Shown here piece after piece: positions 3,647 to 39,178 of a stretch of DNA of 39,326 nucleotides; within the stretch, counting starts at the first letter, position 1, and each line of letters opens with the position of its first letter. Origin of the DNA: Olavius algarvensis associated proteobacterium Delta 3 (GTDB lineage Bacteria > Desulfobacterota > Desulfobacteria > Desulfobacterales > CAFBRK01); the NCBI GenBank assembly GCA_903231505.1, contig CAFBRK010000041.1, forward strand, positions 1 through 39,326. The letters run 5' to 3'. The translations under genes were made by a program, and so were the position numbers. A model generated the notes under the pieces. The model was not told the DNA's origin, did no database searches, and worked only from the letters and a program-made list of their open reading frames with translations.

Positions 3647-3722
3647 GCCCCCGTAGCTCAGTGGATAGAGCACCGGATTCCTAATCCGGGTGCCGCAGGT
3701 TCGATCCCTGCCGGGGGCACCA
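3647..3722 (+). tRNA. tRNA-Arg (CCT), integration target
   Basis: GCCCCCG pairs with CGGGGGC, followed by A-CCA. The anticodon stem-loop CCGGA-TTCCTAA-TCCGG gives CCT, and the T-loop is TTCGATC. All 76 nt are intact. Its 3' part from position 3677 is duplicated at 15914-15962, so this gene is the attachment site of the integrative element; insertion restored a complete tRNA gene. Confidence 0.96.
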
Positions 3723-3725
3723 ATA
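3677..3725 (+). other. attL: 49-bp direct repeat within tRNA-Arg
   Basis: These 49 bp, from the anticodon loop through CCAATA, are identical to 15914-15962. The match breaks abruptly on both sides, which defines the crossover segment of a tRNA-targeting tyrosine integrase. Confidence 0.93.
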
Positions 3726-3733
3726 TTTAAAAG

Positions 3734-3770
3734 GGTTTGCAGAATCTATACTCTGCAAACCTTTATTATT
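3734..3770 (+). terminator. Hairpin downstream of tRNA-Arg
   Basis: A perfect 10-bp stem GGTTTGCAGA (3734-3743) / TCTGCAAACC (3752-3761) with an 8-nt loop is followed by TTTATTATTT. It lies inside the element and would terminate the tRNA-Arg transcript after integration, replacing the backbone terminator displaced to 15962-16009. Confidence 0.75.
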
Positions 3771-3850
3771 TGATTAATTAAGGAGCACATAGCGCTGAAA
3801 ACTATGTGTATAAAGAAGTTTTAGAAGTCCTAACTTTAGAAAAATCAGAT

Positions 3851-3871
3851 TTGGTCAACTATTTGGTCAAC
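3851..3871. repeat. Paired TTGGTCAAC repeats near attL
   Basis: TTGGTCAAC at 3851-3859 and 3863-3871 are spaced 12 bp start to start. The same paired motif with 11-bp spacing lies about 140 bp from attR at 15752-15771 and, degenerate, at 7811-7830. Position near both ends and helical-turn spacing suggest integrase arm-type binding sites. Confidence 0.55.
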
Positions 3872-3950
3872 ACTGTGGGATTGAGTGGCATCAGACACCC
3901 TGTGTTGATGTATTCATAAGTTCAGTATAAAATCTTTACATCTTCAATTT

Positions 3951-4003
3951 GGGGGATAGCTGGACGCAGCGAAAACCCGGAACGTCCGCACCGGGCCTCC
4001 CCC
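3951..4003 (+). ncRNA. Structured RNA resembling C4/CI-type phage antisense RNA
   Basis: An outer stem GGGGGA (3951-3956) / TCCCCC (3998-4003) encloses two interleaved helices: GGACG (3962-3966)/CGTCC (3983-3987) and CCCGG (3976-3980)/CCGGG (3991-3995). The helices either alternate or form a tight pseudoknot. The element lies about 40 bp before the first gene of the element's early operon. In P1/P4-type phages and satellites a short RNA of this kind (C4 or CI RNA) blocks expression of the downstream operon. The family name rests on recall of that arrangement and is tentative; the pairing is visible in the sequence. Confidence 0.45.
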
Positions 4004-4043
4004 GTATCACCTCCTGCGGAAAAAGTGTTTAGCGGAGAGCACT

Positions 4044-13872: not shown

Positions 13873-13910
13873 AAATAAAAAGCCGAGTCACCATCCAAGG
13901 CAACCCGGCT
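13873..13910 (-). terminator. Riboswitch expression-platform terminator
   Basis: On the minus strand AGCCGGGTTGCC (13910-13899) pairs along all 12 positions, with three G-U pairs, with GGTGACTCGGCT (13892-13881) around a 6-nt loop, followed by TTTTATTT. The 5' arm is the same segment that closes the aptamer, so aptamer and terminator are mutually exclusive. Confidence 0.85.
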
Positions 13911-13995
13911 ATCTCTCACTACGCAGATCTGTGGCTTTCGCCCCTGAGAGATCCGTAGCTTTCCGTCCCTGTCTCACGGCAGGTTTGGCTTTGTC
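13891..13995 (-). promoter_or_regulatory. GEMM-I cyclic-di-GMP (class I) riboswitch
   Basis: Reading the minus strand: GCCAAACC, then a stem with GGGACGGAAAGC (family: GGGACGCAAAGCC), a second stem GATCTCTC/GAGAGAT containing GGGGCGAAAGCC, and the closing AGCCGGGTTGCC segment followed by GGATGG. This reproduces the GEMM-I order of AAACC, tetraloop-receptor stem, GGACGNAAAGC, second stem and GGGUUNCC. Because the closing segment also forms the terminator arm, ligand binding should disrupt the terminator and switch the secreted-protein gene ON. Class-I aptamers bind c-di-GMP; some Desulfobacterota variants bind cGAMP, which I cannot settle by eye. Confidence 0.9.
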
Positions 13996-14001
13996 ATTAT
14001 A
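13996..14001 (-). promoter_or_regulatory. -10 element of the riboswitch transcript
   Basis: A perfect TATAAT on the minus strand lies about 6-7 nt before the first aptamer nucleotides, so the transcript would start right at the aptamer. No good -35 is seen 16-18 nt upstream. The AT-rich 14002-14262 shows no gene. Confidence 0.5.
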
Positions 14002-14519: not shown

Positions 14520-14574
14520 TCCCCTATCACCTGATCCATGACGGCTTAACAGGGGGGAAGTGGGGGTTTCTAAA

Positions 14575-15783
14575 ATGACAGTTTTAGCAGAATGCCCGGT
14601 ATGTCACAGGAAACAATCTTCAAGGAACAAGGTTTGTAAGTGCGGGGAAAACCTCGACACCGCAAAGCGGTCTAAACGAGTAAGGTATTGGATAAACTAT
14701 CGAGTCGACGGAAAACAGCGCCGTGAGTATGTCAGTAAATCAAAGACTGACGCCGACACAAGGGACCGTGAGCGCAGGAAGATGGTTGATGAAGGCAGCA
14801 GCGCCGAGGACATTGACGCTCAGCGCCATTGGACTTTTCAGAATTTGACCGATTGGTTCCTTGAAAACAAAAAGAGCGACGAGTTCCGATCCTATGACCG
14901 CGCCGAGGGGGCGCTCAATAAATTCAATGAGGTTTTCGGCAGTCGGTTGGTTCGGTCCATCAAACCTCTGGAAATCGAAAAATATCAAAAGGACCGAATT
15001 GAGGTCGGTCGGAAACGTGCAACCGTTGATTATGAAATCACCTATGCCAAACAAGCGGTCAAGGTTGGGTTTGAAAATGACAAGGTTGGGGTGAAGGCTT
15101 TCAAAGCATTTAATCGAATCAAGAAGCTGTTGGTCACCGGAACGAATGCCCGAGACAGAAAATTTTCAGCCAATGAGTTCATAAAGCTGTTGGACAAGGC
15201 TCCGGAGCATTTAAGACACGTCCTTATTGTCGCGATCAATACGGGAATGCGGAAAGGCGAAATCAGAAAATTGAAATGGTCTATGGTTGACCCGGATTTA
15301 AAGTTTTTTCGTTTGCCCGCCGAAATCATCAAAGAGGGACGAAAAACAACTAAACCCAAGGTCATACCTGTTAGCAACAACGTTCGGCGCGTTCTCGTGG
15401 CTCTCAGGCGCCCCCAGGTGGTCAAAACCGGCAGGACCGACCATGTATTCACATATCGAGGGGAACCGATAAAATCATCGGGAGGACTTCGGCGCTCATT
15501 CAAGAAAGCCTGTGAAGACGCTAAGATCCCTTATGGTGCGAAGGTCAAAAACGGGGTTCAGTTCCGAGATATTCGGACCACGGTTAAAACGTGGATGCTG
15601 AACGCCGGCGTTAGAGAGGCATACCGAGACACGATTCTCGGTCACAGTCTCAAGGGTATGGACAAATATTATATCAAGCCGGATGAGACCAACATCGCAG
15701 GTGCGATGACGCTATACACGGATTGGCTAAACGCACAGCTTGGTGACGAGTTTGGTCAACGCTTGGTCAACATGGTCGGATAA
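14575..15783 (+). CDS. int: Tyrosine recombinase (integrase) with N-terminal zinc ribbon
   Basis: 402 aa. The N-terminus has a CPVC ... CKCG zinc-ribbon-like motif (~7-26), then an arm/SAM-like domain (~90-190) and the catalytic domain: Arg in INTGMRKGEIRKLKW, lysine region, QFRDIRTT (box II), ILGHS and final Tyr in GMDKYYIKP. The first box II residue is Arg where His is usual (HxxR), which may affect activity. It ends 130 bp from attR, the expected place for the element's integrase. A GTG at 14560 in the same frame is an alternative start; GGGGG lies suitably before ATG 14575. The last codons contain the paired TTGGTCAAC motif. Confidence 0.92.
   Translation: MTVLAECPVCHRKQSSRNKVCKCGENLDTAKRSKRVRYWINYRVDGKQRREYVSKSKTDADTRDRERRKMVDEGSSAEDIDAQRHWTFQNLTDWFLENKKSDEFRSYDRAEGALNKFNEVFGSRLVRSIKPLEIEKYQKDRIEVGRKRATVDYEITYAKQAVKVGFENDKVGVKAFKAFNRIKKLLVTGTNARDRKFSANEFIKLLDKAPEHLRHVLIVAINTGMRKGEIRKLKWSMVDPDLKFFRLPAEIIKEGRKTTKPKVIPVSNNVRRVLVALRRPQVVKTGRTDHVFTYRGEPIKSSGGLRRSFKKACEDAKIPYGAKVKNGVQFRDIRTTVKTWMLNAGVREAYRDTILGHSLKGMDKYYIKPDETNIAGAMTLYTDWLNAQLGDEFGQRLVNMVG
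15752..15771. repeat. Paired TTGGTCAAC repeats near attR, inside int
   Basis: TTGGTCAAC at 15752-15760 and 15763-15771, 11 bp apart, encode FGQRLVNM at the integrase C-terminus. The match to the non-coding pair near attL (3851-3871, 12 bp apart, a different reading frame) favours a DNA-binding function over protein homology. Confidence 0.55.
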
Positions 15784-27378: not shown

Positions 27379-28728
27379 ATGGACGCGAATCAACAGATAG
27401 CCCGTTTTGTGTCGCAAATCCGATGGACAGAGCTGCCCGCCAAGGTGCAGGAGAAAGCTCGCATGTGTTTCATAGACAACCTGGGTGCTACAATAGCCGG
27501 CATAAAAACGAGAGTCAGTCAAATCTGCGCCGACTACGCCCAGGCCACATGGGCCTCTGACGCCGCCACAATCCTGCTGCACGGTAAACGCTCATCCCCT
27601 GCTGGCGCGGCATTTGCCAATGCTGCTGCCGCTAACGGGATCGATAGCGACGACAGTGTAAGATACGCATGGGGGCATGGGGGCGCACAGATCTTCCCGG
27701 TAGCCCTTGCTGTGGCGGAGGGCCTGGATCTTGGCGGCGCACAGTTACTGGCCGCTACGGTGGCAGGTTATGAAGTGGCCCACCGCATTGGGGGCTGCTG
27801 GCATGAACATCACCGCGAGTACCAGGCGTGTGGATCCTGGGGCTCGGTGGCCAGTGCCGCGGTAGCCGCCAATTTGATGGGGCTGAGGCCCGCGCAGACA
27901 TCTCATGCGTTGGGCATAGCCGAGTATCATGCGCCGAATGCACCCATGATGAGGGATGTCGATCACCCTGCAATGGTCAAGCATGCCATTCCATGGGGGA
28001 GTATGACGGGTGTTACGGCCGCCGAACTGGCTTTCCGTGGTTTTACCGGGATTCCATTGCTCCTCGGCGAAGAGCGGTATCATCACTGGGTTATGGACAT
28101 CGGTGAGCGATACCTCATGCTTGATGGCGTCAGCTGGAAAATGAAAGGATATGCCTGTTGCGGATGGGCCCATGCCGGTGCTGAAGGCGCCCGGGAACTG
28201 GTTGTGAATCATGGGATCTCCCTGGAGGAGATTGAGCGTATCGTTGTGGATGCGTTTAATGAAACCGTTCTCCTAGGAACCCGGTTGCCTTCAAATACGG
28301 AAGAGGCCCAGTTCAATCTTGCCTGGCCGGTGGCGGCCATGCTGGTGGATGGAGAAATCGGTCCCAATCAAACCGGGGAACACCGCCTCAAGGATCCCAT
28401 CATTCGGGATCTTGCCCGAAAGGTCGAGGTCGTCGAGTCCGAAGAACTCAACGAACTGTGCCGGCTGCACGCCAAAGGAGATCCACGGGGTCGTTTCGCC
28501 AGTGTTGTAACCATAAAACTGAAGGACGGGCGCGAGTATTGCTCAGGGATGAAAGATGGCGGTATGAAGTTCCCTGCACCTGAGTGGACACGGGAAATGA
28601 TGGCTGAAAAGTTTCGCTGGCTGGCGACAGCGGTATTGGACAGTACCGTGATTGATGAACTGCTGGATATGGCCTGGCATCTCGACGAGCTAAACCAGAT
28701 CAAAGAACTGACCGGCAGGTTGAGCTAA
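27379..28728 (+). CDS. MmgE/PrpD family protein
   Basis: 449 aa, the usual length. The family includes 2-methylcitrate dehydratase and cis-aconitate decarboxylase, but many members act on other 2-hydroxy or 2-alkyl acids, so the substrate is open. Typical features: the N-terminal helix, MCFIDNLGATIAGI, SSPAGAAFANAAAANGIDSD, TVAGYEVAHRIG, ACGSWGSVASAAVAANLMGL and the late CGWAHAGAEGA. GAGGAAAG precedes the ATG. AT-rich upstream sequence (27235-27275) could hold a promoter. Its 3' end overlaps the damaged peroxiredoxin on the other strand by 29 bp. Confidence 0.9.
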   Translation: MDANQQIARFVSQIRWTELPAKVQEKARMCFIDNLGATIAGIKTRVSQICADYAQATWASDAATILLHGKRSSPAGAAFANAAAANGIDSDDSVRYAWGHGGAQIFPVALAVAEGLDLGGAQLLAATVAGYEVAHRIGGCWHEHHREYQACGSWGSVASAAVAANLMGLRPAQTSHALGIAEYHAPNAPMMRDVDHPAMVKHAIPWGSMTGVTAAELAFRGFTGIPLLLGEERYHHWVMDIGERYLMLDGVSWKMKGYACCGWAHAGAEGARELVVNHGISLEEIERIVVDAFNETVLLGTRLPSNTEEAQFNLAWPVAAMLVDGEIGPNQTGEHRLKDPIIRDLARKVEVVESEELNELCRLHAKGDPRGRFASVVTIKLKDGREYCSGMKDGGMKFPAPEWTREMMAEKFRWLATAVLDSTVIDELLDMAWHLDELNQIKELTGRLS

Positions 28729-29323
28729 TAAAATCGTTCCACGTCATCTTGCCAGGTTTCCAACCCGATGGTGTCGCTTCCGCCCCCTTCGTATCTCTGA
28801 CCAATTGAAAAGCATGCAGTTGGCGAAATGTTTCATTGACGTTGCGCCCCACCGGTGGGGTCAGTACTTCATATCCCTGAAGTGCACCCTCAGGGTCGAT
28901 AATAAAACGGCCCCGTGTTTCCACTCCCGCGTCTTCATCAAATACCCCATAGGCTTTTCCAACACGGCCGCCCGCATCAGAAAGCATCGGAAATGGGACA
29001 CCGCCATCGACCATCTTGGATAGTTCTTTATCATCCCACATTTTATGCACAAACACGCTGTCTATGCTCATGGAAAGAATCTGAACACCGAGCTTTTGAA
29101 ATTCTGAATATTTTTCGGCAACTGCCGAAATTTCTGTAGCTCAAACAAATGTAAAATCTCCAGGATAAAAGCACAGCAACACCGCAATAAACGGCGAACT
29201 ACAGAACCAATGAGGCGATGTGACGAGTTTGAGACAGTTCAATGCTCGAGATTTCTTGCGCGTGTCACAAATCTGGCTGGAGTTGAGTAATACCAATTCC
29301 ATTGACGATCCGTTTCTTGACAT
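28700..29323 (-). pseudogene. Selenocysteine peroxiredoxin (PrxU-like), probably degraded
   Basis: The frame is open except for one UGA at 29143-29141, exactly where the peroxidatic residue belongs: CFYPGDFTFV-U-ATEISAVAEKYSEFQ, compared with DFTFVCPTE of AhpC/Prx proteins. Downstream it continues LGVQILSMSIDSV, VPFPMLSDAGGRVGKAYGV, RGRFIIDP and TPPVGRNVNETFRQL; the resolving-cysteine segment reads EATPSGWKP without cysteine, as in selenoprotein peroxiredoxins. A 7-bp hairpin with AGUU loop follows the UGA. The N-terminus before CFYPGDF does not look like a peroxiredoxin in this frame, while fragments such as PARFVTRARN and SIELSQ appear in the other two frames, implying indels. The C-terminal motif is cut off after GWKPGK by the end of the PrpD gene. 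Hence likely a relic. Confidence 0.75.
29113..29130 (-). promoter_or_regulatory. Bacterial SECIS-like hairpin of the peroxiredoxin
   Basis: On the minus strand, beginning ten nucleotides after the UGA, TTTCGGC pairs with GCCGAAA around the loop AGTT. The loop lies 18-21 nt after the UGA and has G as its second base. Bacterial SECIS elements need a short stem 16-37 nt downstream with G among the first two loop bases, which this satisfies. Confidence 0.7.
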
Positions 29324-37966: not shown

Positions 37967-39178
37967 CTACCGGTCGAGGTAAACTCGCCTGGTGATTTTG
38001 TGGACCTCATAACGCTGGTCAGGGCTGCCGAGATAGTAACTGAGATCAACGGTGATGTCAGCCGATTTGACACCCTTGGGAAGAACGAATTCTATGGATT
38101 CTGTCTTTGTCTGGTAGGGCTGGATGCTGGTATCGCGAATATTCGCGACCTTGATCTGAGCCCCGTAAACTTGCTTCGAATTTTTTTCGTTGGTTGCCTG
38201 GGGATGATAATGTCGCGTCTGGATGCCGATTTCTTTTCCGTCCGGTGTCCTTGCGGTCACTTCCAGGACCACTCGATTGTGGGACGGTCACCCGTCGGGA
38301 ATCCGATGTCCGGCAGTTGAGGCGACCTTCGTGTTCACGATGACCTTCGGCACATAGGTCTTGGCGTTCTCGAGCCACTCGTAGCCGAGGGTCTGGACAT
38401 CGAGTGAAAGCGCTTCCTGCAGGAGTTTCGTTGTGTGCGGGATATCATCCCAGTTCGGCGCAATCAGATGATCCGCCAGGCCGTCAATTGGCTTCATGTG
38501 GCATTCCTGGCAAGTCTGGGAGCCGCCGGCGGGAATGTAGGCATGCAGGTAGCTGCCATAGAGGTTCGCACACTGCACCGGGTTTTCGAACTCGAGGTTC
38601 GGCCCTAGGCCGTGGCACTGTCCGCACATAAGCGAGTGTTGCATAACGGCACTCTTCTTCACTTTCTCAAAGACCTCATCTTCGTGAGCATCCATTTCGT
38701 TGATACCGTAAAGTGTAGCCGGGTCCGGTTTTCCCTCCTCGAGCCGGTGGATGATCGCCTTTTCGTTGTGGCAGACGATGCAGGTAATCTGAAGCTTGGC
38801 GATCTTGGCCTTGTCCTGCGCAATGATGGCTTCGGTGAACTCAACCGCCACGGAATCTTCAGCATGGGTCAAGGCCTGCGGCAGGTGGCACTTGAAGCAC
38901 GGATAGGTCTTGAGTGTCGCCTGCTTCGGATCGGGAGGCGAAAAAGGCGTTGCGCCGGGTGTAGCCAGCAACGTCATATTCAGGGTGCCCGGGGTTCCCA
39001 TCATAGGGCGCGCGTGTTGGGACTTCTCCCACTGCGCATAGATGACATCATGGCATTCCGCGCAACGCGAAGAGTCGAACATAGCGGCCAGTTCGTCTAT
39101 TGTCTGAGCTTTCTGAGCAAACGCCGGCAGCGGAAACGCAATACAAAGGATAATGCTGAGTAATTTAAACAAATTCAT
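37967..39178 (-). CDS. Five-heme cytochrome c with in-frame UGA (probable selenocysteine)
   Basis: 403 aa when UGA at 38290-38288 is read as selenocysteine. A signal peptide (LFKLLSIILCIAFPLPAFAQ) is followed by five CxxCH heme motifs at residues 39, 94, 133, 185 and 223 (CAECH, CFKCH, CIVCH, CGQCH, CQECH), so it is a periplasmic electron carrier. After TAGHRIPDG the UGA is residue 297, and the same frame continues PSHNRVVLEVTARTPDGKEI and on for 106 residues to YEVHKITRRVYLDR, with conserved-looking beta-domain composition. TGHR-P-type cytochrome C-terminal domains fit this. Without readthrough the protein would lose a third of its length. ATG 39178 follows GGAGGAG; an upstream start lacks a signal. 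A nonsense mutation remains possible. Confidence 0.75.
38253..38272 (-). promoter_or_regulatory. Candidate SECIS hairpin of the cytochrome
   Basis: On the minus strand GTGGTC pairs with GACCGC (six pairs, one G-U) beginning 16 nt after the UGA, with an 8-nt loop CTGGAAGT that can tighten to GGAA with G first. The apical loop is at 24-27 nt, inside the bacterial SECIS distance range. The stem is weaker than that of the peroxiredoxin. Confidence 0.45.

Follow-up and report, generated by a model that had tools for sequence, protein, structure and literature searches.

The question raised by contig CAFBRK010000041.1 of Olavius algarvensis associated proteobacterium Delta 3 is whether a UGA codon within one of its genes is a stop or is translated as selenocysteine (Sec). 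The window, i.e., the whole stretch of DNA analysed, is 39,326 nucleotides long and comprises the whole of this contig (C41), one of 350 in a host genome assembly of 5.74 Mb that is 94% complete. The gene occupies positions 37967–39178 of the minus strand, to which all coordinates given for its parts refer. Its frame of 403 codons, followed by a TAG stop (37967–37969), starts with an ATG at 39178, just after a GGAGGAG motif, and contains a single in-frame UGA, at codon 297 (38288–38290). Five CXXCH motifs are followed by GHRIPDG, the UGA, and 106 further codons up to the stop, exactly as described in an earlier note on this DNA, where a five-heme cytochrome c and candidate selenoprotein was proposed. 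When the UGA was treated as a residue, the translated frame matched NF040886 (ExtKL seleno-cytochrome) with 454.2 bits (cut-off 250) over profile positions 30–422 of 423. In a profile search of the genome, the same gene matched NF040886 at 447 bits, with one TGA inside. We consider the gene to code for a five-heme c-type cytochrome, an ExtKL-type selenoprotein whose in-frame UGA is very likely translated as Sec.

A search of sequences in the PDB revealed entries 9wt8, 9wta, and 9wtb, deposited as multiheme cytochrome c selenoprotein (MccSep), and entries 9wt9 and 9wtc, deposited as MccSep U325A. The UGA of the window aligned exactly with the deposited X of MccSep and with the A of the U325A mutant. 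The profile alignment covered nearly the whole chain of these five entries, with an identical Sec column, while a single-sequence alignment reached only residues 26–374. The proposal of a selenoprotein is thus supported both by the naming of the NF040886 family and by solved structures in which the Sec residue was mutated. No paper on MccSep was found in a literature search, which, here and below, covered open-licence PMC papers. In a Foldseek search (library to 8 April 2026), entries 9wt8–9wtc were not among the matches, probably because they were released after the library date; this result has no bearing on the fold.

The family has a prior record, cited here by PMC number from excerpts of the papers. 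In 2007, the Geobacter pair GSU2937+GSU2936 was proposed as a selenoprotein candidate, with the remark that such a selenoprotein, if real, would be without non-Sec homologues (PMC1914089). The name ExtKL comes from a 2018 paper on ExtI, in which preliminary work links ExtKL to selenite reduction (PMC5877670), and the TGA between ExtK and ExtL was remarked upon in a 2018 study of outer-membrane conduits (PMC6148476). NF040886 is among the selenoprotein families in a 2026 review (PMC13188914). Homologues are mentioned in papers on cable bacteria (PMC11976967) and on syntrophic sulfate reducers (PMC10553843), whose texts are free of the words selenoprotein and selenocysteine. The former describes small pentaheme cytochromes (sPHC) of cable bacteria as structural homologues of ExtKL. 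We therefore conclude that the finding of the earlier note is correct but not new, since the ExtKL/MccSep family was predicted in 2007 and its structures have been solved.

To determine which residues occupy the Sec position, homologues were collected from several sources. A match above the NF040886 cut-off was present in 40 of 395 genomes of the phylum. An alignment of 50 rows, comprising 49 of the 50 genes above the cut-off (the window's own included, that of genome G113 left aside) and one below it, had UGA at this position in 43 rows, Cys in four, Ile and Val in one each, and one row cut by a contig end. In a set of named genomes, which partly shares contigs with the phylum set, UGA occupied the position in all of the best 80 of 199 relatives, spread over many assemblies. 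These 80 lean to the window's own branch, because they were ranked by likeness to the query; the scan patterns that retrieved them were the heme-2 motif and the Cys-coded form of the loop, and therefore carried no bias toward UGA. Two further searches brought the number of non-UGA copies to ten (six with Cys, and one each with Ile and Pro and two with Val), and in a combined set of 139 rows, Sec stood at position 297 in 129. A quick tree of these rows required four or more exchanges of Sec for another residue or the reverse. Five of the six Cys copies were unbroken, the sixth (L058) having a TAA elsewhere in its frame, and the four copies with Ile, Val, or Pro each ran through in a single unbroken frame. 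Eight genomes contained a non-UGA copy, and all of them except G203 had a UGA copy above the cut-off as well.

The homologue comparison suggested by the earlier note thus favours Sec, with six Cys copies as the expected counterpart. The same note had named an unrelated residue at this position as a point that would speak against Sec, and such residues do occur: Ile, Val, or Pro in four paralogues, and Ala in the penta-heme cytochrome c552 of Thermochromatium tepidum (PDB 5ze8), which is 20% identical to the window protein and keeps the counterpart of its His291. These cases are a point against the Sec reading, in that the fold does not need this residue. However, the four paralogues, L055 (genome G027), L056 (G203), L194 (G421), and L195 (G420), are divergent extra copies, and three of their four genomes also contain a UGA copy. 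In G027 and G421, the paralogue and a Cys copy form a tandem pair, while in G420 it is next to a UGA copy.

Decoding of UGA as Sec requires dedicated factors, and the earlier note, to which a second UGA gene in the window suggested that the host decodes Sec, called for a search for them. All were found in the host genome: SelA (615.7 bits, cut-off 268), SelB (369.5 bits, cut-off 242), SelD (369.1 bits, cut-off 125), and tRNA-Sec (70.1 bits, cut-off 47), whose anticodon is TCA by ARAGORN. The SelD gene itself has an in-frame TGA. The second UGA gene of the window, at 28703–29182 (minus strand), codes for a PrxU-type peroxiredoxin with an FTFVU motif. Read through, it matched NF040737 with 290.5 bits, above the cut-off of 270, but without read-through it reached only 207.7 bits. 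Profile positions 1–67 of 233 were unmatched, however, so that the gene may be 5'-truncated.

The UGA of the cytochrome gene is followed by a hairpin resembling a selenocysteine insertion sequence (SECIS), with GG in its loop, at 38253–38272, that is, 16–35 nt past the UGA, precisely where the earlier note had placed it. The hairpin folds at -7.5 kcal/mol. When the protein sequence was kept fixed and codons were redrawn by each gene's own usage, the window hairpin had a z score of -2.5 and was matched in stability by 1.3% of 300 synonymous recodings. In the same test, 119 distinct UGA forms had a mean z of -2.63, with 90 of the 119 at or under 5%, versus a mean z of +0.19 and none of ten for the non-UGA copies; all five inner pairs formed in 113 of 119 UGA-form stretches versus one of ten non-UGA copies. 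GG was usual in the loop among the 20 commonest loops listed. Thus, UGA forms keep the hairpin beyond the demands of the protein sequence, whereas the copies without UGA do not. From its position and its conservation together with the UGA, this candidate SECIS-like element probably directs Sec insertion. Several points weigh on the other side. The difference between the two forms (Mann-Whitney p 6e-7) is an indication only, because the rows are related by descent and the p value overstates their independence. In a looser, 28-nt test, the family mean z was -2.0 (54 of 105 fell under 5%), but the window alone had a z of -0.55. The authors of the 2007 paper had looked for a SECIS element in the GSU2937+GSU2936 family without success (PMC1914089). 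Our literature search yielded no report of one for ExtKL.

Two other explanations of the UGA itself have to be weighed against translation as Sec. According to one, the UGA is a real stop after a 296-residue cytochrome, and a second small protein is encoded downstream in a tight operon, as ExtK and ExtL were at one time annotated. This reading was allowed for in the 2007 paper (PMC1914089), and the database entries conform to it: among the matches listed (120 of 1,123 database relatives), lengths were 290–346 residues, i.e., the entries ended near the UGA. Yet the frame is unbroken in all but one of the Cys homologues and in every Ile, Val, or Pro copy, and the MccSep chains contain both halves, with Sec between them. 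Conservation also spans the UGA, with GH..PDG before it and P298, V304, and V307–A309 after it. The ratio of nonsynonymous to synonymous substitution rates (dN/dS) against four relatives (95, 90, 73, and 68% identical to the window's protein) was 0.11–0.29 before the UGA and 0.08–0.26 after it. On the basis of the unbroken Cys forms and of the conservation and low dN/dS across the UGA, two separate genes were rejected as very improbable. Because the relatives' entries are cut near the UGA, annotation is losing the C-terminal half, where the proposed active site lies. The other explanation takes the UGA for a nonsense mutation in a cytochrome gene under decay, or for a read error. Although the sequence comes from a draft assembly in many contigs, the same codon is present in all of the best 80 named relatives, and purifying selection continues downstream of it. 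An identical UGA is found in a Desulfosarcina metagenome-assembled genome (95% protein identity) and in the Olavius Delta 4 symbiont (90%), so that a read error at 38288–38290, which the earlier note had raised against itself, is unlikely. Decay was likewise rejected, and we give it next to no credence.

If Sec is inserted, it remains to ask what it would do there. An N-terminal export signal of approximately 21 residues, ending in AFA (39116–39178; read by eye rather than by a prediction program), would direct the protein out of the cytoplasm, and five hemes would be loaded at CAECH (residues 39–43, 39050–39064), CFKCH (94–98, 38885–38899), CIVCH (133–137, 38768–38782), CGQCH (185–189, 38612–38626), and CQECH (223–227, 38498–38512); both cysteines and the histidine of each motif are kept in 139 of 139 rows. 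The Sec loop is borne by a C-terminal beta-sandwich, predicted in an AlphaFold2 model (residues about 252–403, 37970–38425; the VIA-align rows span 252–403). Two further residues invariant in the 139 rows are Cys203 (38570–38572), which lies outside the heme motifs and may be the partner of Sec297, and His291 of the GHRIPDG loop (38306–38308), a putative distal heme ligand. Sec297, Cys203, and the heme that His291 would ligate are proposed to form one site. Electrons from periplasmic cytochromes would run along the five hemes to this site, where the selenolate would hand them to a small oxidant, thereby reducing it. The most likely candidate for this oxidant would be a metalloid oxyanion, e.g., selenite or an arsenic species, a tentative choice, with less than even odds, made because of the Geobacter selenite reports and the arsenic neighbours of a related clade. 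Alternatively, Sec may be inserted merely to tune a heme or to lock a selenylsulfide with Cys203, in which case the protein would simply carry electrons and act on no substrate itself. Such a role is consistent with the invariance of Cys203 even where Ile, Val, or Pro stands at position 297, with the Ala of the c552 relative, and with a proposal that ExtKL acts in extracellular electron transport (PMC11976967). It appears rather doubtful, however, in light of the retention of costly Sec in 129 of 139 rows, which points to chemistry, and of the frequent arsenic-gene neighbours of the related branch.

The surroundings of the gene in the window were searched for clues to its substrate. With the Geobacter ExtKL (GSU2937–2936, NF040886), the window gene shares the five CXXCH motifs, the GH.IPDGU loop, the UGA, and the C-terminal domain. 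Unlike ExtKL of the extHIJ-KL-MNOPQS cluster, its downstream neighbours are a DUF2092 gene (PF09865), a 94-codon open reading frame (ORF), and an NAAT/MarC-type transporter gene, and, to judge from ORF lists, the neighbours are different again in its close relatives L073 and L074. No ext cluster was found beside the gene (ExtI, M, N, O, P, Q, and S were not searched for). Several results run counter to a metalloid substrate for the host's own protein. ExtH had no match in the host genome, a search made without a positive control on an assembly that is 94% complete. A tblastn search with 14 exemplars of arsenic- or DsbD-type proteins gave no match in the window, where only 148 nt upstream of the ATG are covered before the contig ends. 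The ACR3 gene of the host genome lies on another contig, C272. The case for this substrate is therefore drawn from relatives.

Elsewhere in the window, a c-di-GMP-I-GGC riboswitch aptamer (13895–13998, minus strand, 66.6 bits) immediately precedes an 840-codon ORF that carries DUF7453. A tRNA-Arg, an int-alpA RNA match, and, by eye, a tyrosine-integrase-like ORF, at 3647–4019 and 14560–15783, may mark an integrated element. Three full-length ORFs of the MttB family (PF06253; 25667–27109, 30809–32239, and 32228–33700) are probably not pyrrolysine proteins, since they are without in-frame TAG.

To survey neighbourhoods in relatives, 102 loci were examined, of which 95 had at least 5 kb of flank. 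Broad clustering of neighbours yielded many wrong-frame and house-keeping clusters, and the arsenic set alone was followed. An ACR3 homologue lay within 8 kb of the gene in 15 of the 95 flanked loci (13 distinct contigs by their lengths); ArsR-like, ArsP-like, DsbD-like, and ArsC-like genes were found in 22, 18, 16, and 10 loci, respectively, and two or more of ACR3, ArsR, ArsP, and ArsC in 19. Against the TIGR00832 cut-off of 283 bits, the ACR3 exemplars scored 462 and 373, and NF033788 was passed by two ArsR exemplars. One ArsP exemplar and those of ArsC and DsbD fell below NCBIfam cut-offs, while related ArsP and DsbD exemplars passed Pfam ArsP_1 and DsbD_TM. The ArsP-like count is mixed, because the exemplar from locus L083 belongs to the SO_0444 Cu/Zn efflux family. 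This transporter gene (L083, 7298–8461; NF033936, 415 bits) lies approximately 1.5 kb from extKL, and similar genes are located near L079 and L092; the SO_0444 family is itself listed among selenoproteins in the 2026 review (PMC13188914).

On a quick tree, built without a mixture model and carrying a long-branch warning, all 15 ACR3 rows fell in a single 23-row clade (SH-aLRT 99). Of the 22 examined loci of this clade, 15 had ACR3 at a distance of up to 8 kb, versus none of 80 others (one of them, L127, outside the tree). Arsenic-type islands, with ExtKL genes near ACR3, include L106, L107, L108, L110, L112, L118, L122, L125, L213, L214, and others, and part of them also contain ArsR, ArsP, ArsC, DsbD-like, and thioredoxin genes. 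The window gene is outside the ACR3 clade, in a 36-row clade whose placement beside it is modestly supported (84). Even within its branch, the ACR3 link comes and goes, since the label requires five changes on the tree, which also tells against it. No report of an arsenic link of ExtKL was found in the literature search. The arsenic-island branch hints at metalloid chemistry.

The window gene is thus one more member of a described selenoprotein family, for which the present analysis provides Cys, Ile, Val, and Pro homologues as well as evidence for a SECIS-like element, both reported as missing in the 2007 paper (PMC1914089). Put at its widest, and with considerable reserve, for the whole may well prove wrong, ExtKL proteins would be Sec-dependent metalloid reductases of the periplasm, with a Sec-Cys pair beside a heme and five hemes in all. 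The SECIS element missed in 2007 would direct Sec insertion family-wide, and a neighbouring branch would have been recruited to arsenic-resistance islands with ACR3, ArsR, ArsP, ArsC, DsbD-type, and thioredoxin genes. These islands are a gene-neighbourhood lead towards the substrate and, if the proposal is true, the arsenic-island branch would be a selenocysteine enzyme of arsenic detoxification.
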